From assembly GCA_019044685.2 (NCBI GenBank), contig JAGTXX020000003.1, positions 1,426,001 to 1,490,000 on the forward strand: DNA of 64,000 nt. The letters run 5' to 3'. Source of the stretch: Nannochloris sp. 'desiccata'. Taxonomy: Eukaryota; Chlorophyta; Trebouxiophyceae; Chlorellales; Chlorellaceae. Positions 7,493-59,151 of this stretch are shown piece after piece. The position numbers were made by a program, and so were the translations under genes. The notes under the pieces are model-generated. The model was given only the letters and a program-made list of their open reading frames with translations, was not told the DNA's origin and ran no database searches. How positions within the stretch are numbered: position 1 is the stretch's first letter; each line of letters starts with the position of its first letter.

Positions 7493-10129
7493 TTAGACCT
7501 TAATCAATTTCCATTGAACGCGTGTAGAAGAAGAAGGAGAAGAAGAAGGAGGAGAAGAATTCCAAGTAAAGGCGTCAGTCTTGCTGCAATCATCCTCATA
7601 GCCGAGCAACTTGCCCTTCAAGGCGCCTGTTACCGCTTTAATATTCACAGGCAAACCATCACACGTCTTGCTTCCAAGAAGCTTCACAGGGTTGATTACC
7701 ACCTTCCAGCTTGAACCACCAAGACGAGGTGATGGCTTGGAAGCTGCTGAAGCCAAATTGGTATACTGGGTGTTGTTGGAGCATCTGTCGGCAATCACAG
7801 CAGACGGCGCAGAGGTAGATGCACCGAGGGTAGCAACAGCATTAAGTTTCCAGTGAGTCCTAGGAGGCTCTGATTGGTTCTCTGTGCGGAGAAGAACGGC
7901 TCTATTATTGCAATCAGCAACGCTGAATGCAATAAACTTGCCAGGACAGCTCACAGACTCAATCTGGTAAAGGCCCTTCCACTTGCAGGTGCTCTGGGAA
8001 GGCTTTGGTGGTGGCGACCCTGGCAATGGAGCAGGAGACGGCTCTGGAGTTGCCACAGGAGCAGCAAGACGGAATCCGGCATCAGATTCTTCTCTAGCAG
8101 CTGATACATAGCTGAAAGTTGTAGATGACAAACTTGCAGGTCCGCCAGCATAAAATCCACCGCGTTGGCCCCTCGAGCTGCTGGGGTTGCCATCTGCATT
8201 ATTCCATTCCCATACATTGCCATTTTGGTCAAAAGTGCCATAATAACCAGGTGAATTTGAAAAAGCGCCAACATCAGAAAGGTAATTCTTTGAGATGTCG
8301 TATGTGGGACTTTGGGGGACTGAATAATAGCCATTTGTATAGATAAAGTTGGCTTGGTTGGGCAAAGAACCTATCGTATTGCCTGGCAAGGTCGAGTTTT
8401 GAGTGGCGTAGGGGAAGTATCCACCAGCACCACCGTTTAATGCAGGACTGTAAAACCCAGACTTGTACCATTCACTTTCAGATGGAATATAGTAGCTTGG
8501 AGGTTTCCCGATGTTGGGATTGATCGAATTTTGGGCAGGGAAAATGCCGCTCACAACGCCGTACAGTGGATATGCACCATTTTCAGTTGTGCTGGTGTCT
8601 TGAGGCCCTTTTGGCTGTCCATTTGACATCCAATTTGCAAAACGAGCAGCATCGAAGCAACTTACGTACGTAATTGGCCTGTTGGCGCTGGTACCACCGT
8701 TGTACATCACCGAGTACGTGTAAGAACCTTGAGAACCTTGGCGAGATATGCCAGCAATAACCATATCGGTCGATAATTTTGGATTCCACAAGCTATACGT
8801 GTCATTGATAGCAGCAACCGCATTAAGAAAGGTGGTGTATTGACCAATTGTTACTAAATACTTGCCTATTTGATACTCGTATGGCATAGATCCTTGGGCA
8901 ATCAGAGGGTCTGCAGGATTGTTGATATCCGAAACAGTGGTCATTTGATATTTAATCATCTCAGAGTCAGGTGTCGGGGTAGGTGTAGGTGCAGGAGGTG
9001 GAGTTGGAGGAGCAAGAGATGGTGAGCTTGGAGGCGAAGTTGAAGGAGAAGGAAAAACAACGTCTCCAATAGGGCTGGTGAGACGGAAGCCTCCATTATT
9101 GGCGGCTGTCGTTAATGGATTGGCAAGGCGATAGGAAGCTTCCATGTAACCAGCATAAGAGGTCCAGCCACCTCCTCGGAGGATTCTGTACGCAACAAGG
9201 TCAGGAATATCATTCCACTGCACGCCAGAATTAATAAAAAAGAAAGGCCATAGTTGTGAGAAAATTAAACACGTATCTAATCTATTCAGAAGACGGAAAG
9301 GTCAACCTACCTCCCAAACATTTCCATTTTGCTCGAAAGTGCCATAGTAACTTGCACTTCCGGTGAAAGCTCCAACGTCAGTCAAGTAATTGATAGTAGT
9401 GAGTAAATCAGGAGATTGCGTCGTGCACATAAGACCCTCTGGATTGATATAATTCGCCTGATTATACTTTGAGCCAATCGCATTTCCAGGGTTTTCATTA
9501 CTCTGTGTAGCAAAACGATAATACGTCTGCGACTGAGCATTGTAAAAAGCAGATTTATACCATTCATCTTCACGAGTAATATAGTACACAGGACCTTTAC
9601 CAGTGTTTGGATTGATTGCATTGATTGGTTTGGCATTGCCGCTCAGAGCTCCGTTTACTGCATAGGTGCCGTCTTCAGTGGTTTTGCTGCCTTGAGCACC
9701 ATTAGGCTGGCCGTTAGCCATCCAATTAACAAACCTACAAGCACGCCACCACGTCATATAACATCCAGGGCGGTTTGCACTGTCGCCACTGTTTTCAATG
9801 ACCGAGTAAGAAAAACTTCCAGTGGCACCGCTTTGCTTAATGCCAGCGATGTTGAGATTTGTCGCCATTTTAGCATCATACAGGCTGTATGTGTCAGTTA
9901 CAGCAACGGCGTTGAGAAAATCGGTGTATTGTTGAATAGTAATGGGATATTTGCCAATTCTGTATTCGTAGTCAACTTTGCCAAAACCGGTGAGGTCGGC
10001 AGGGTTGCCGGCATCTCCCACTTGAACCATATCCAAAGTAACAGTGGATGTAACAGATGTTAACGAAGTAAAAATGATCAGGAAAGCATACAGCCATCTG
10101 TACAACTGTGTGACTAAATTATTTGTCAT
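7493..10129 (-). CDS. Secreted protein with tandem FGE-sulfatase (SUMF1-like) domains and Cys-rich C-terminal domain
   Basis: Two exons (9311-10129 and 7493-9217) give 847 residues. The junction GNVWE / WNDIPDL restores an intact domain. An N-terminal signal or anchor helix (LYRWLYAFLIIFTSLTSVTS) is followed by two FGE-sulfatase (C-type-lectin-fold) domains at ~25-340 and ~365-660, linked by Pro/Thr/Ser-rich spacers. Both carry the signatures EYRIGKYPITIQQYTDFLNA / EYQIGKYLVTIGQYTTFLNA, FVNWMANGQPNGAQ, YGTFEQNGNVWE and RGG..GFRL. The last ~150 residues hold regularly spaced cysteines and may be a lectin-like trefoil. Catalytic formylglycine-generating enzymes need two cysteines near the C-terminal RGG motif; neither domain has them, so a binding rather than enzymatic role is inferred. 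This subfamily is common in planctomycetes, verrucomicrobia and cyanobacteria. The first ATG is at 10129. Confidence 0.85.
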
Positions 10130-10484
10130 GGTGTTCACGCCCGTCTATTGCTTCAATCTTTTGCCCTTTTCTAGTTTAAAGTAAAATTTAAAGACCCTTG
10201 CTCAAAATGTGGATTAAACTTCTCGAAGAGGTTTTCTATTGTTTAAAAGGCACCAATATTCCTGCCTTGAAAGTTTTGTTTGTTTGTTTGTTTGTTTGGC
10301 ATGCACCTGATCTTTAATGGAATACGTGCGGAAGCACACTGATGCACATTAGCGTACTAGCGAATATTATGATGATATTATGAAGACATATTCTTTACCA
10401 GAACATTTATATTATTTGGCCTACAATATTCTTCTCACGTCTCGTTACGGGCACGTAATCAATCATCTTTTGAACAGCCTCTTT
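10130..10484. promoter_or_regulatory. Upstream region of the FGE-domain gene
   Basis: 355 bp between the FGE-domain start codon and the inverted-repeat element. It contains a TTTG tetranucleotide repeat (about 10274-10298) and otherwise AT-rich sequence. It probably holds the promoter of the FGE-domain gene. Confidence 0.35.
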
Positions 10485-48360: not shown

Positions 48361-49534
48361 TCACATAGCAGCACGATTAGCCATAGCAGCTAAACATTTC
48401 AGGCCAACGCCGCCTCCATCTCCATTGCATCCGCTATCGACGCCATTTACCCGCAAAGGCACAGCTACATTACGACAAGACTGATACCTACCACCTGTAT
48501 GAATTCCAGTCACCATCTGAGCATCTTTGTCGTACAATAAACTCCCACTGTGACCCTTGCACGAATCGATATCGGGAACAAAATAACCATCATTGAGCTG
48601 GCCAGGCATTGTGCCGGACGATGAAAATTGAGTACACCCATTGTATTGAGGATATCGCTGGCAGGGAGAATTAGGAATGTCCGCCTCCTGTCCAGGATAT
48701 CCAGCTATTAGCACATTGGTGCGGTTATATCCAATGCGCTCACCCCAAGGTAGTGGAGCATAGGGCAGGACGTCATTCGTCTTAATAATACCACCATCAA
48801 AGGGGTTGCTGAATTTATCACCCGACCACTTACTGGCTTTAGCGAGAGAAATACTCCGGGTAGTTTTAGACAGATTGCAAGCATTATTTCCCTTGCAAAA
48901 GACATTGACTGAATTAGCGAAGCCTTGTTCTTTGTCGAACAAGCAATGACCGGCTGTTGCGATGTAGCGATCGCCTGCTATCCAACCAGAACACGAGCGT
49001 TCTATATATCTTACATTTGAAATTCTCCAATATGACTTAATAGAGCACGCCTGTAGAAATGACAATTGTTGTGGAGAATCATGGGTTGACTTTGGATCTA
49101 TGGAAGATAGAGCAGGGCAGAAGTAACAGCCGTACCTGAGAGGAGTTTGATGGCTGTAAACTATTTGCGCCACAAATAGCAGCTGCTTCACCATCTTGGG
49201 TATCATTACCATCCAATTGGAGCCCATTTAAGCCAACTGCAGCAATGATTGGCGCGGCAGGCTCAATGATAACGTTGGGCTGGTCAGGGCTAAATGGCAC
49301 AGTAGCTACTGCGTTGGATGGATACGACTCATCTGGGGCTATAGCAGAAGAATCTATGCTCCCCAATAGGAAACTGTCGTCAGTCGATTCAGGAAAAGGT
49401 GACTCGACTGAGCCTGGAACGAAATTGGAGGCCTCGTCAAGATTCAAAGCTTCAGTAAAGATCTGCGCAGAGGCTACAGAGAGAATGAGGGCGACGACAA
49501 GGAAGCGGCCAACGACTACAAACATGGTGGCCAT
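48361..49534 (-). CDS. Secreted trypsin-like (S1/V8-type) serine protease
   Basis: Two exons (49136-49534 and 48361-49050, phase 0) give 362 residues. A signal peptide (FVVVGRFLVVALILSVASAQ) is followed by a ~110-residue Ser/Pro/Asp-rich pro-region. The catalytic domain shows SGWIAGDRYIATAGHCLF (His), NPFDGGIIKT (Asp) and DSCKGHSGSLLYDKDAQMVTGIHTGG (Ser), in the order and spacing of chymotrypsin-fold proteases. The GHSGS rather than GDSGG nucleophile loop and the IAGYPG motif favour the glutamyl-endopeptidase/V8-like branch. At least eight cysteines suggest an extracellular, disulfide-bonded enzyme. Physiological role unknown. Confidence 0.87.
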
Positions 49535-54304: not shown

Positions 54305-55855
54305 TTATTCAATTTTGACCAGAGTCTTATTTTTCTTCCCCGCTGCCAACAACATCAATCTGCCTTCAATGAGATCACCTTCACTTAGCACATGCCCTTC
54401 ATCTTCAATTTTCATATTATTCACACGAATACCACCCCCTTTAATCATCCTACGCCCAGCTGCTTTGCTTGGCTGCATCCCTGCTGCGACCAGAATATCA
54501 GCCAGCGGCTGTCCAATAATCTGATCTCTAGAAAGTACCGCAGAGGGGGCATCAGCAGCTGCTGCTTCAAGCGTAGCTGCATCCAATTTAGCAGAAGAAC
54601 CTGGTGCTAACGCTGCAGTTGCGTTTAATGCTTGTGCAAGACCTTCTTCCCCGCGAACAAAACGGGTGACTTCTTCCGCTAAGCGTTTTTGCGCCGCGTT
54701 GGGGACATACTCAGCTGCTTTCATCGATTGCTCTATAGCATCAATCTCTTCCAATGGTAAAAACGTCAGCATTTTTAAGAATTTGGGTACATCTGCATCA
54801 GTTGTCTTTAATAAAAACTGATAAAATTCGTACGCAGATAGTTTTTCTGGGGATAACCAAACTGCCCCGCCTTCAGATTTGCCAAATTTGCTGCCATCAG
54901 ACTTTAATAATAATGGAAACGTCAATCCAAAACACTGATATTGGTCTTCTTCTCCATTGTTATAATCTCCATCTTCTTTACCAAGCATACGCCGTACGAG
55001 ATCTGTACCAGCAATGATATTACCCCATTGATCACTCCCGCCCACCTGTACTTTGACCCCCATTTCCCTTGCCATATGTACGAAATCATACCCCTGGAGT
55101 AATTGATAGGTAAATTCAGTGTAGGAAATGCCAGATTCGGATTCCATACGTTTCCGGACACTTTCCTTAGCAATCATTGTGCCTACACGTGCGTATTTAC
55201 CAATATCTCTTAAGAAAGTAAGAAGCGGCATAGGCCCAAACCAGTCCAAATTGTTGACAATCATCGGTTCAGGGAGATTTTTAGATGGTGGGGTGAGTAA
55301 ATGACGTAAGGTACGTTCTATGGCAGAGATATTTGCTTCAATCAATGCTTCAGAGAGGACAGGGCGTTCTGCAGATTTTCCAGACGGGTCGCCAACACGG
55401 CCGGTTGCGCCACCTAAGAGAGCGACGGGACGATGGCCACAGCGTTGAAACCAGGATAAGACAATGATTCCTAGTAAGTTCCCTAAATGGAGGCTGTCGG
55501 CTGTGGGGTCAAAGCCGCAGTAGACCAAGAGAGACTCACGAGCGGCAGCTGCTTCAAGCTCGGGACTCGTTATTTCTTGTAAAAGGCCTCTCGAACGTAA
55601 TACGTGGACAATATTATTTGAACTAGAATCCTGAATATTTATTTCAGTATTTTCTGCTTGTTGGGTTGACGTCGCCGCATTGCAGGTGGTAGAGGTGAAA
55701 GGTCTAGCAGTGCTGTAGGAGGCATGGCGTCGGTGACTAGAGAAGGAGGATGGGAGAGGAATAATGTCCGAAGAACGGCGAGAACGGATGGTCATCGCTC
55801 GTGATTGTTGGGTCCATAGTATTCTAAGCTTTCCTAAATTGCTGCCGAGCTGCAT
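54305..55855 (-). CDS. YARS2: Bacterial-type tyrosyl-tRNA synthetase, organellar
   Basis: Charges organellar tRNA-Tyr. Single exon, 516 residues. The class I HIGH motif is LHLGN in YCGFDPTADSLHLGNLLGII; KMSKS is KFGKS in GSKFGKSEGGAVWLSPE. The tyrosine-binding segment TYQLLQGYDFVHM and the QVGGSDQWGNIIAGTDL motif are present. The C-terminal S4-like RNA-binding domain reads ADILVAAGMQPSKAAGRRMI, then GGIRVNN. The start at 55855 is the first in-frame ATG and gives a ~85-residue Ser/Arg-rich presequence (RSRRSSDIIPLPSSFSSHRR) suitable for mitochondrial or dual mitochondrial/plastid import. Divergent from AFG1. Confidence 0.93.
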   Translation of the reverse strand: MQLGSNLGKLRILWTQQSRAMTIRSRRSSDIIPLPSSFSSHRRHASYSTARPFTSTTCNAATSTQQAENTEINIQDSSSNNIVHVLRSRGLLQEITSPELEAAAARESLLVYCGFDPTADSLHLGNLLGIIVLSWFQRCGHRPVALLGGATGRVGDPSGKSAERPVLSEALIEANISAIERTLRHLLTPPSKNLPEPMIVNNLDWFGPMPLLTFLRDIGKYARVGTMIAKESVRKRMESESGISYTEFTYQLLQGYDFVHMAREMGVKVQVGGSDQWGNIIAGTDLVRRMLGKEDGDYNNGEEDQYQCFGLTFPLLLKSDGSKFGKSEGGAVWLSPEKLSAYEFYQFLLKTTDADVPKFLKMLTFLPLEEIDAIEQSMKAAEYVPNAAQKRLAEEVTRFVRGEEGLAQALNATAALAPGSSAKLDAATLEAAAADAPSAVLSRDQIIGQPLADILVAAGMQPSKAAGRRMIKGGGIRVNNMKIEDEGHVLSEGDLIEGRLMLLAAGKKNKTLVKIE

Positions 55856-56202
55856 TTGTCTGGCAAATACGAGAAAATTGGGAATGTGATGAAGATATAA
55901 ATTATTCTTAGGGGAGAAGACAATCGACAATGTGCGTAGCTTTCAGGTTAACAGTATTCTAGATGCAATTGCTAAATAATTGATTGTCTGTTATGTGAAC
56001 CAAATTGGCAAAAAGTTATCAGTTTTCCTCATTTCTTGCTGTTCAAAAACAACGCTCGCCCACATAAATTTTCAAACTCAAGTCATAGCAAAATCATATT
56101 CAAAACAAAAAGTATCAAGAATGATAACTACTGCGTGGAGGATTGCGCTTGGAACGCAAAGACTATTATAAATTTCGTGATCACGGAAAACCATAATCCA
56201 AG
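55856..56202. promoter_or_regulatory. Divergent intergenic region TyrRS / AFG1
   Basis: 347 bp between divergent starts of two organellar-protein genes. Nothing discrete recognised. Confidence 0.35.
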
Positions 56203-57948
56203 ATGCAACGGATGAAACTTGCCTCCCGAGCATTATCAACCGCTTTACCAGAACCTAAGCTACCTAATTTACTCCATAGATATGAGGCATTCATCTCCGG
56301 AGGATTTCTTCAGGCGGATGCAAGCCAATTGAGATGCTTGGAGCGGCTACAAACCTTGCTAGAAGACTTGCACTCCTATGGAAGAAAATTGAAAACATAT
56401 GAACACGAAAGGAGTTCTTACGAAGTAAAGAGACAGATAGCAGAACAGCACCTCCATGAAGAACTTTCTAAAAAGCAGAAATATGAGGGCAGCAGTGGTG
56501 GCAGCGGCGGTTGGAGTCTGTCGCAGCTATTCAATAGCTTAAGTAAAGACGAACAAGATATGAATACAAAACACACGTCAGCTAAAGAGCTTGAAAATCG
56601 GCTGATTTCTCTACTAGGACCTGCTCCATCTGCTCCCCCTGCCCCAAAGGGTGTTTATTTATTTGGAAGTGTCGGTTCTGGTAAAACAATGCTCGCCGAT
56701 ATGCTGTACGACGCAGCCTCCGAAAGTAAAGTCTTACCCTTACAACGACGTCTACACTGCAATGCAGCGTTGCTAGAGCTCCATAGCCGGATGCATAATT
56801 TGGAAAAGAAGAATTTCACTTCCTCCTCTGGAATACAATATCTCGATGGTGGCAGTGACGATTTTTTAGGAAAGAATGCAAAAGTAGCTCGAATAGCACA
56901 CCGCAGACTCGTAAGAGAACGTATGATGACCCCTTTAGAAGATTACTCGAAAGGAATAGCGGCAGCAAATGCTACTAGTATGTTGAAGGCAGCACGAGAA
57001 TTGCTCCTAGGTTCTTCTTCTACTACGTATACTACCAACACATCTACTTTTACCCCAGCTGCATTATTATGTTTTGATGAGATGCAAACGACTGATCCGT
57101 ACAACGTTGCTGCATTAAAGGCTCTCACAGAGGCTGCTCTCCAAGATGGCGGCACCCTCGTTGCTACATCGAATAGAGCACCCAAGGATTTGAGTCCTCA
57201 TGGTCTCCACGAAGCGATGTTTGAGCATTTTATAGAGACGTTGGAACGTGGGTGCGATGTAGTGGAACTTAGTTCCCCTGAAGATTACCGCAGAACAAGA
57301 ATAGTATTATCAACAAGGAATAAAACAAAAAATGAAGAAAGTAAGAAATTTTATTTCTGGCCTTTAAATGCTAGTTCTGCCGCTCAGCTGGAATCTGCTT
57401 GGGATAGCTTAGAAGACACAGAAATAACCCAGCCTATAGAAATCCCAGTTATGTTTGGCCGTACTCTTACAATAACCAAGCTTCGTGGCAACACTGCTGC
57501 TTGGTTTTCTTTTGATGATTTATGTGGCAAGCCTTTAGGTCCTTCCGACTACATTGCCCTTGCTTCCCGCTTCAAAACTGTGTTTATAACTGACGTCCCT
57601 GCCATGTCAATGCGTGTGAGGGATAAAGCTCGTCGTTTTATCACTCTGATAGATGAAATATATAATCAAAGAGGGCGGGTAGTGTGCACAGCAGCGGTGG
57701 AATTGGATGAGTTGTTCACAGGCAAAGAAGTAAATGAAGAGCCTTTGATTGATTTAGAAGGGTTGCAGTTTGAAGGGGCTGTAGAAGGTGCAAAGCTTCG
57801 TCGTGATTTGAGTCAAGAAGGAGGGGTTGCGCCAGTGACGATGACGGCAAAGAGGATTGCGGCATTAGGTGGCGAAGAAGAAAGGTTTGCTTTTGCGAGA
57901 GCTGTGAGTAGATTATATGAAATGCAAAGTGAAATTTATACTAGTTAG
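56203..57948 (+). CDS. AFG1: AFG1/LACE1-type mitochondrial AAA ATPase
   Basis: AFG1 is a mitochondrial ATPase linked to turnover of unassembled respiratory-chain subunits. Single exon, 581 residues. A mitochondrial N-terminus (MQRMKLASRALSTALP) is followed by LPNLLHRYEAFISGG, which resembles the typical P-x-x-x-Y start. Walker A is YLFGSVGSGKTMLADMLYD (~residue 153), Walker B LLCFDEMQTTDPYN (~288), then LVATSNRAPKDL and the late family block ALASRFKTVFITDVPAM with FITLIDEIYNQRGRVV. The C-terminal EERFAFARAVSRLYEMQSEIY is also canonical. Family length (~450-500) is exceeded slightly because of a Ser/Thr insertion before Walker B. Confidence 0.92.
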   Translation: MQRMKLASRALSTALPEPKLPNLLHRYEAFISGGFLQADASQLRCLERLQTLLEDLHSYGRKLKTYEHERSSYEVKRQIAEQHLHEELSKKQKYEGSSGGSGGWSLSQLFNSLSKDEQDMNTKHTSAKELENRLISLLGPAPSAPPAPKGVYLFGSVGSGKTMLADMLYDAASESKVLPLQRRLHCNAALLELHSRMHNLEKKNFTSSSGIQYLDGGSDDFLGKNAKVARIAHRRLVRERMMTPLEDYSKGIAAANATSMLKAARELLLGSSSTTYTTNTSTFTPAALLCFDEMQTTDPYNVAALKALTEAALQDGGTLVATSNRAPKDLSPHGLHEAMFEHFIETLERGCDVVELSSPEDYRRTRIVLSTRNKTKNEESKKFYFWPLNASSAAQLESAWDSLEDTEITQPIEIPVMFGRTLTITKLRGNTAAWFSFDDLCGKPLGPSDYIALASRFKTVFITDVPAMSMRVRDKARRFITLIDEIYNQRGRVVCTAAVELDELFTGKEVNEEPLIDLEGLQFEGAVEGAKLRRDLSQEGGVAPVTMTAKRIAALGGEEERFAFARAVSRLYEMQSEIYTS

Positions 57949-58407
57949 TATGGTTGTTTGATTTGAGAGAGAACGAAGGTTGAAGAAAGTGGTGGCCGTG
58001 GCGGTGGTGAAAATAAATAAAATATTATTTTTCTTCTTTGCATTTAAATTCTTTCACGCTTATTTGGGGAATTGTTTTTGTTATATGCGTGTAAAATGTA
58101 CTGCCCGCTAGGGGACGTTTATAGTCAGGGAAGTTTTTGGTCACAAATTACAAGATCACGAACTGCACGCCCAAAACCTTTGATTCTAATATCTTGACGC
58201 TGTCAATTGATAACAGAAGGAGAATATAAGGGCTGAACGATGCAGAATATGTCTATGATGGTTCCAAACCAGATAAAAATCGGTTGTTTTTAAGGATTTT
58301 CCGGGGGTCCCATTTTTTTCAAAATTATGGGGGATATATTAGGCAGAAAACAGCCGAATTTCAAAACTCTTCCTCTAGTGGCTGATCCTGGCTATCGGTC
58401 ACTTGTC
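57949..58407. other. Gene-poor region upstream of the permuted tRNA
   Basis: About 460 bp after AFG1. A TATA-like stretch (gatatatta, 58333-58341) lies ~70 bp before the tRNA 3' half, possibly relevant to its transcription. Otherwise no feature recognised. Confidence 0.35.
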
Positions 58408-58492
58408 ATCGTGAGGTCGCCAGTTCGATCCTGGCAGGGAGAGTCTCAACCCAATCTCCCTTAGCTCAGCTGGCTAGAGCGCACGACTGTTA
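58408..58492 (+). tRNA. Circularly permuted tRNA-Asn (anticodon GUU)
   Basis: The 3' half (58408-58443) precedes the 5' half (58455-58492), with 11 bp between them. Rejoined at position 37/38 in the anticodon loop, they make a 74-nt tRNA. Acceptor stem TCTCCCT (58455-58461) pairs 7/7 with AGGGAGA (58436-58442). The D stem GCTC/GAGC (58464-58467, 58477-58480) pairs 4/4. Anticodon stem CACGA/TCGTG (58482-58486, 58409-58413) pairs 5/5. T stem GCCAG/CTGGC (58419-58423, 58431-58435) pairs 5/5. The anticodon loop becomes CTGTTAA, the usual tRNA-Asn loop. Invariant U8, A14, G15-C48, G18G19, A21, U33, A37 and T-loop TTCGATC are present; discriminator G73 fits eukaryotic tRNA-Asn. Permuted tRNAs are known from cyanidiophyte red algae and prasinophytes, where circular precursors are processed by the splicing endonuclease. 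I could not draw a canonical bulge-helix-bulge by eye. Confidence 0.9.
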
Positions 58493-58495
58493 TAC

Positions 58496-58500
58496 TTTTT
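58496..58500 (+). terminator. RNA polymerase III T-run terminator
   Basis: TTTTT starting 4 nt after the last base of the permuted tRNA's 5' half, in the right place to end a Pol III transcript that covers both halves. Confidence 0.7.
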
Positions 58501-59151
58501 CCACTTCTTATTTAAAATTTAGCATCTACGCCCTCCGAGGAATCCAAAATGAAAACAAATTAAAAATCGGAGCTATCGAGCTTATAATTAGGAATGTTGT
58601 TGACCACCCTTTTAACTGACCAGTAAAAACACCTGTAACATGTTTGGTGGCCCTTATACGCTTTGATCGTAAAGCTAGATGCCTCTACTCGTGGATAACT
58701 GCGTACACTTAAGCCGATTCAGAAAGTTTCAGTTATTTTAAATTCTCCGCCGCCGTTCAAGAGAGAGAGAGAGAGAGATTTACAGCCATATAGCGCGGAG
58801 AACGCACCCTACTGCGGGGTATACATTAATTCAAGAGAAAGCAAGGCCAAATAATAGCAGGACAAGAGAATAACGTTAAAAGCTGTAAGAACAGAAAAAC
58901 CATCAAGCCTATAGCCCCACGTCCTCCGCCGCCGTTCAAGGTAAGAAGTTAAACTTTTTAAAAGTACAGAAGCCATCGGTTGATTAAATTCGAATTATTT
59001 CTACTGTTATATCCTACATTTGAGGTGAATTGCCGATTTCAACCAAAGGAATTTAAACTTTCAACTGACATTGATCAAAGTCAGCGACCCCTATTGGGCC
59101 AGAATAATATACTTCTATTCCATTACCTTACAAATACGGCAGATTAAATCT
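58501..59151. other. Non-coding region with a 17 bp direct repeat
   Basis: 651 bp with no supported reading frame. CTCCGCCGCCGTTCAAG occurs twice (58745-58761 and 58924-58940), once followed by a GA-dinucleotide repeat and once by GTAAG. This GC-rich word stands out against AT-rich surroundings. An unannotated ncRNA or a non-coding spliced transcript is possible. Confidence 0.4.

Follow-up and report, generated by a model that had tools for sequence, protein, structure and literature searches.

A very probably working, circularly permuted nuclear tRNA-Asn(GUU) gene in Nannochloris, a member of a set of at least 27 permuted tRNA genes

Circularly permuted tRNA genes have so far been handled as rarities: the accessible text of PMC3978253 (Soma, 2014) lists 34 of them in seven species. 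C. merolae, the richest genome of that list, accounts for 11; four prasinophytes contribute 19, a nucleomorph two and an archaeon two. In C. merolae, where 11 of 43 genes are permuted and four junction types as well as ectopic introns are described (PMC3978253, in the part available), a circular intermediate has been demonstrated (Soma et al., 2007, 2013; as reported in PMC3978253). TATA-like or AT-rich sequence lies within about 50 bp upstream of the permuted genes of this alga. Among the prasinophytes, O. tauri carries a permuted tRNA-Asn(GTT) whose halves join at 37/38 and are separated by a linker of 22 bp (Maruyama et al., 2010, in Table 1 of PMC3978253). Two permuted Ser genes are described for the Amorphochlora nucleomorph in the accessible part of PMC4494063, and permuted genes of the trebouxiophyte Auxenochlorella UTEX 250-A are announced for Supplementary Fig. 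S1 in the available texts of PMC12633428 and PMC12636532. A further paper (PMC13353863) cites the 2007 work and holds nothing more on permuted tRNAs. The literature search, which lay outside most subscription journals, returned no trebouxiophyte report beyond Auxenochlorella. The original prediction had confined permuted tRNAs to a few algal lineages and archaea, which still holds, with the amendment that Auxenochlorella has already added the trebouxiophytes (PMC12636532, as far as accessible).

The locus described here occupies positions 58408–58492 of a 64,000-nt stretch of Nannochloris DNA, referred to as the window. It shares with the O. tauri gene the amino acid, the anticodon, the 37/38 junction (type II) and a short linker, whereas it differs from the prasinophyte cases in belonging to the Trebouxiophyceae, in a linker of 11 nt and in a genome that holds at least 27 permuted genes, compared with three to six per prasinophyte genome in Table 1 of the partly accessible PMC3978253. 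As in C. merolae, permuted genes are missed by a standard scan, are followed by a T-stretch after the 5' half and do not encode the CCA (PMC3978253, accessible part); unlike the four junction types of that alga, all 27 genes found here are joined at 37/38, a junction that the finders favour. The likeness to Auxenochlorella extends to annotation, as its tRNAscan-SE set was incomplete and the permuted genes were found afterwards (PMC12636532, in the part available). A permuted tRNA-Asn joined at 37/38 is a kind already known; within the literature searched, what is new is the extent of the layout in one genome. Cross-species scans for the locus yielded no match, in databases from which records very close to this genome may be excluded, and five pattern matches encode no relative.

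The phylogenetic position of the host was approached through a tyrosyl-tRNA synthetase gene near the Asn locus (54305–55930), whose nearest named relatives, at 70–73% identity, come from Parachlorella, Picochlorum (code Picsp_1, the genus by reading) and Micractinium. In a tree of 31 rows the protein falls on the Picochlorum branch together with unnamed, largely environmental sequences, and the Picochlorum clade (support 96/93) lies inside a group with Chlorella and Parachlorella. This one protein tree suggests that the host belongs to the Picochlorum branch of the trebouxiophytes. The nearest gene upstream of the Asn locus encodes an AFG1-like ATPase (56203–57948). Elsewhere on the minus strand of the window, two adjoining open frames (7493–10138) carry FGE-sulfatase (formylglycine-generating-enzyme-like) domains, and another (48361–49227) encodes a trypsin-like serine peptidase.

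The layout of the Asn locus, as read from the sequence, is that of a tRNA-Asn(GUU) with reversed halves, both on the plus strand, the 3' half lying upstream of the 5' half and separated from it by the linker (Table 1). The 3' half reads A38, TCGTG (3' strand of the anticodon stem), AGGTC, GCCAG-TTCGATC-CTGGC (T arm), AGGGAGA (acceptor) and G73, and the 5' half reads TCTCCCT (acceptor), TA, GCTC-AGCTGGCTA-GAGC (D arm), G26, CACGA, C32, U33, the anticodon GUU and A37. The two stems shared between the halves, acceptor and anticodon, are exactly complementary, and after joining at 37/38, a junction placed from the stems in the DNA, all 21 of 21 stem pairs are Watson-Crick. The rejoined sequence retains the conserved U8, A14, G18G19, U33, UUC and R15:Y48. 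Neither a T4 run nor an encoded CCA is present in the linker, the 3' CCA is absent from the DNA, and the T-run follows the 5' half, so that the gene has a one-unit layout. Inverted halves 11 bp apart, a fully Watson-Crick cloverleaf upon rejoining and a T5 run had all been proposed in the original prediction, and each is borne out by the sequence.

Table 1. Features of the permuted tRNA-Asn(GUU) locus (window positions)
Feature	Position	Strand	Basis
T7 tract, 95 nt upstream of nt 38, possible external promoter element	58313..58319	+	T-tract enrichment
G at leader position -3, partner of C32	58405..58405	+	A-I pair statistics
3' half of tRNA-Asn(GUU), A38 to discriminator G73	58408..58443	+	sequence, covariance model, ARAGORN
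T arm	58419-58435	+	within 3' half
Acceptor 3' strand	58436-58442	+	within 3' half
Linker, 11 nt, TCTCAACCCAA	58444..58454	+	sequence
5' half of tRNA-Asn(GUU), nt 1 to A37	58455..58492	+	sequence, covariance model, ARAGORN
Acceptor 5' strand	58455-58461	+	within 5' half
D arm	58464-58480	+	within 5' half
Anticodon stem 5' strand	58482-58486	+	within 5' half
C32, partner of G(-3)	58487..58487	+	A-I pair statistics
Anticodon GUU	58489-58491	+	within 5' half
T5, RNA polymerase III terminator-like run, 4 nt past 5' half	58496..58500	+	sequence

Conventional tools do not report this gene: ARAGORN found no tRNA gene in the 64-kb window in genomic order, and Rfam gave no match at the gathering score. 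At a relaxed threshold, the sole Rfam match in 58200–58700 was YrlA (RF02553), which scored 27.4 bits (E = 0.0008) where the gathering score is 69. A covariance model (R2) was built from an alignment of 13 other permuted tRNAs of the same genome, Asn excluded, and assigned 72.6 bits (E = 9.3e-27) to 58408–58492, with a runner-up of 10.9 bits in the 64 kb. ARAGORN also classified the rejoined sequence as tRNA-Asn(gtt). The identity put forward originally, a permuted tRNA-Asn(GUU), is upheld. In a 12-gene alignment that includes Asn, 98.0% of 252 cells pair and two-sided changes occur in 19 of the 21 pairs; none of 500 shuffles reached the observed values, and slid controls gave 39–47%. On mononucleotide-shuffled loci totalling 516,426 bases, searched on both strands, the structural finder produced one false match. 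Folding of the linear Asn precursor was no better than that of shuffles (z = -1.18, with 24 of 200 shuffles folding at least as well), and its minimum free energy structure (-31.4 kcal/mol) is not the cloverleaf (-26.8 kcal/mol). Chance pairing at the locus was rejected on the R2 score, the shuffles and a test with swapped halves.

The 21.55-Mb genome (18 contigs) was searched by several routes, comprising the YrlA model as bait, a gapped T-arm-to-D-arm pattern, weak tRNA matches and two T-arm motifs. At E ≤ 10 the bait yielded at least 12 matches (46 of 427 candidates scored), and 12 of 12 fold as permuted tRNAs. The sequence GGTTCGANNCC occurs at 95 places, all of them covered, 30 having been cut by the search itself and 58 fetched, while 7 were known or were palindromic partners; of the 75 places of AGTTCGANNCT, 32 were fetched, 5 were known, 36 were dropped for a T-loop position 60 other than C or T and 2 were dropped as repeat copies; and the 168 places of GGTTCAANNCC, of which 100 were listed, contributed no fetched sequence. 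In total, at least 27 distinct permuted tRNA genes were found on 14 contigs, a lower bound since the systematic search was limited to certain T-arm variants and to 37/38 junctions. They comprise Arg (ACG, UCU, UCG, CCG, CCU), Ala (AGC, CGC, UGC), Thr (AGU, CGU, UGU), Leu (AAG, CAA, UAA), Gly (GCC, UCC), Ser (AGA, GCU) and single genes for Asn GUU, Val CAC, Ile UAU, Cys GCA, Phe GAA, Tyr GUA, Lys CUU, Trp CCA and Met CAU (read as elongator). Beside Asn there are thus 26 genes, most of them intact, for 14 other amino acids. With CCA and dummy flanks added, ARAGORN recognized 27 of 27 rejoined genes with the expected anticodon, none of the 27 in genomic order with introns allowed, and 100 of 702 chimeras in which halves were swapped between genes. 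Linkers measure 5–73 nt, and a T4+ run begins within 27 nt past the 5' half in all 27 genes.

Additional copies were found for Gly GCC on contig C13 (L159) and for Trp on C8 (L091, L092), along with a degenerate Leu-like locus (L112). The three Trp(CCA)-like permuted copies of C8 are situated at 321685, 551564 and 552570 (G000:C8), and L092 has an altered acceptor 3' strand; an ARAGORN call of Thr(tgt) with a 107-nt intron at L091 was dropped, as it overlaps the permuted Trp copy. The permuted Val(CAC) gene (L011, G000:C12:298992-299127) has intact stems and carries C33 instead of U33 without an anticodon-intron (A-I) pair, and because of these two features it may be dead or in early decay, or else an unusual tRNA. 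The Ser AGA gene (L116) shows an unusual D arm and also has no A-I pair. For Cys (L014), the junction was set by a 5-nt variable loop; the alternative placement with a 12-nt loop would lose the A-I pair. One candidate of the gapped pattern search (L034) was judged by eye to be a chance match. Near-identical copies of Ser(GCU) (L004/L005) and permuted Gly(GCC) (L140/L159) lie in opposite order on C6 (G000:C6:2472079-2549231) and C13 (G000:C13:218760-296485), which would fit C13 being a second haplotype or duplicating part of C6. T-arm-like stretches were noticed directly upstream in the leader of L133 (GGTTCGACTCC, C16:207081-207091) and just upstream of nt 1 of tRNA-His L006 (TGTTCGAATCC); perhaps these are relics of tandem duplication followed by loss.

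With the Rfam tRNA model at E ≤ 0.001, at least nine genes were detected genome-wide (63 of 825 candidates scored). The ordinary genes of nuclear type that were found also number nine, six of which contain an anticodon-loop intron at or beside 37/38 (His, Pro UGG, Pro AGG, Asp, Ser UGA and Ser CGA), while Val UAC, Gln CUG and initiator Met (L003, by reading) have none. The Ser CGA gene (L037) was called Pro(CGG) by ARAGORN and was read by eye as Ser(CGA) with an intron. The two Ser GCU copies L004 and L005, which look organellar, were excluded from the nuclear-type count. In this incomplete inventory, obtained with finders that favour the permuted layout, 27 of 36 nuclear-type genes are permuted, a share that may be biased since the finders favour 37/38 junctions. 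Every Arg, Ala and Thr gene found is permuted, and for Asn, Cys, Phe, Tyr, Trp, Ile, Lys, Leu, Gly and elongator Met no gene of any other layout was recovered. The tRNAs found include no gene for Glu, Gln UUG, Lys UUU, Ile AAU, Leu CAG or UAG, Gly CCC, Val AAC or Pro CGG, among others. A normal colinear tRNA-Asn(GUU), for which the original prediction had advised a search, was not found either: the 73-nt rejoined sequence matches its own two halves and nothing else in the 21.55-Mb genome, and the 16 matches to RF00005 at E ≤ 10, from 63 scored candidates out of 825, include no conventional Asn gene. The permuted locus is probably the main or only Asn gene of this genome, although a diverged ordinary gene may have been missed since the tRNA inventory is incomplete.

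With regard to transcription, T5+ tracts were found within 100 nt upstream of 18 permuted genes out of the 25 whose flanks were long enough, and of 5 of 8 ordinary genes (Pro AGG left aside), compared with a background of 15.5% of 323 windows. The tracts lie mostly about 60–100 nt upstream and are common to permuted and ordinary genes. They represent a possible upstream or external promoter element for RNA polymerase III. None of four TATA-like motifs occurs within 60 nt of the Asn gene. TFC1 and TFC3 homologues were not found in C. merolae according to the accessible part of PMC3978253, whereas the Nannochloris genome has two matches to the TFIIIC B-block, the better of which (E = 1.1e-8) falls in an open frame of 988 aa. 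This match is a hint, since the model also matches 8 of 14 prokaryote controls, above the cut-off in four.

A pairing of possible relevance to splicing is found at the junction. The partners of the A-I pair are nt 32 and leader position -3, and these form a Watson-Crick pair, always C-G or U-A, in 19 of 27 permuted genes (shuffle p = 7.5e-5), while pairing of nt 32 with the other leader positions from -1 to -10 occurs in 1–10 of 27. The pair was present in 11 of the first 12 genes, and its near-universality was an early impression that gave way to 19 of 27 in the full set; the eight genes without it are Arg CCG, Val CAC, Thr AGU, Lys CUU, Leu AAG (G-U), Gly UCC, Ser AGA and Trp. It is read as the anticodon-intron pair expected of a substrate of the Sen endonuclease. 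A strict bulge-helix-bulge (BHB) was not apparent by eye at the Asn junction. The genome contains genes for Sen2 (best PDB match Sen2, E = 5e-35) and Sen34 (best PDB match Sen34, E = 1.5e-10), as well as RtcB, in full length on C11 and in two pieces on C14. A Trl1-type ligase (PF09511) gave no match in the genome, in a search whose control was silent too.

Several other explanations of the Asn locus were considered. It might be a rearranged pseudogene or relic, in which the outer halves of a tandem tRNA duplication are gone and what is left has died. Outer-exon loss after duplication is indeed a published origin model for permuted genes (PMC3978253, accessible part), and degenerate copies do occur in this genome, namely the Leu-like L112 and the Trp variant L092. 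However, the Asn gene itself retains every stem pair, a correct loop and discriminator, the A-I pair and the T5 run, the 26 further permuted genes show covarying stems and splice-site pairing across 14 other amino acids, and no replacement Asn gene was found, all of which makes decay quite improbable.

Still less credible is a permuted-tRNA-like regulatory RNA that does not serve in translation, such as a Y-RNA module of the YrlA type. The YrlA module adopts a permuted-tRNA-like fold, and the sole Rfam match at the locus is to this family. The match arises because YrlA (bacterial Y-RNA, RF02553) likewise places a T-arm-like hairpin ahead of a D-arm-like one, and it says little, since at E ≤ 10 the model also matches 13 of 14 prokaryote control genomes, none over the cut-off; as an identity for the locus, YrlA was rejected for failing to reach its gathering score by a wide distance. 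Unlike YrlA, the locus has a closed, full anticodon arm with GUU, a matching acceptor stem and G73, its predicted product is a tRNA that ARAGORN accepts once rejoined, and the identical layout bears 26 other anticodons. Single tRNA halves do occur in genomes, and the 100 of 702 swapped-half chimeras that pass ARAGORN lend something to a chance juxtaposition of two unrelated tRNA fragments. This reading is strongly disfavoured, to the point of being very nearly negligible, by the exact complementarity of acceptor and anticodon stems, the R2 score of 72.6 bits and the repetition of the layout 27 times.

The locus is thus very probably a functional nuclear tRNA-Asn(GUU) gene of a trebouxiophyte, circularly permuted and processed via a circular intermediate, a reading that draws on the layout, the cloverleaf, the covariation within the family, the A-I pairing, the T run and the genes for Sen2, Sen34 and RtcB. 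The following course, from transcription through cutting, ligation and circle formation to trimming of the ends, we infer from the published work on C. merolae and prasinophytes. RNA polymerase III would produce one transcript consisting of leader, 3' half, linker, 5' half and a trailer up to the T5 run. The halves would then fold back on each other, with the anticodon stem drawing leader and trailer into an “outside intron,” and the Sen2/Sen34 splicing endonuclease, for which the C32-G(-3) pair would be part of the guidance, would cut after A37 and before A38. The ends at 37 and 38 would be sealed by a ligase, RtcB as the evidence stands, to yield a circular pre-tRNA closed by the 11-nt linker, which RNase P and tRNase Z would excise prior to CCA addition.

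For the genome as a whole, the chances appear evenly balanced that nuclear tRNA genes are permuted by default and that an upstream T-rich element, rather than the order of A and B boxes, sets transcription; if permutation is the default, most of the tRNA supply would pass through circular RNA intermediates. A set of at least 27 genes permits statistics on which leader and loop bases are read by the splicing endonuclease, and it permits asking how RNA polymerase III starts on inverted A and B boxes and how the layout spread through the tRNA set. It also cautions that, in a green alga, the greater part of the tRNA genes can escape standard annotation.
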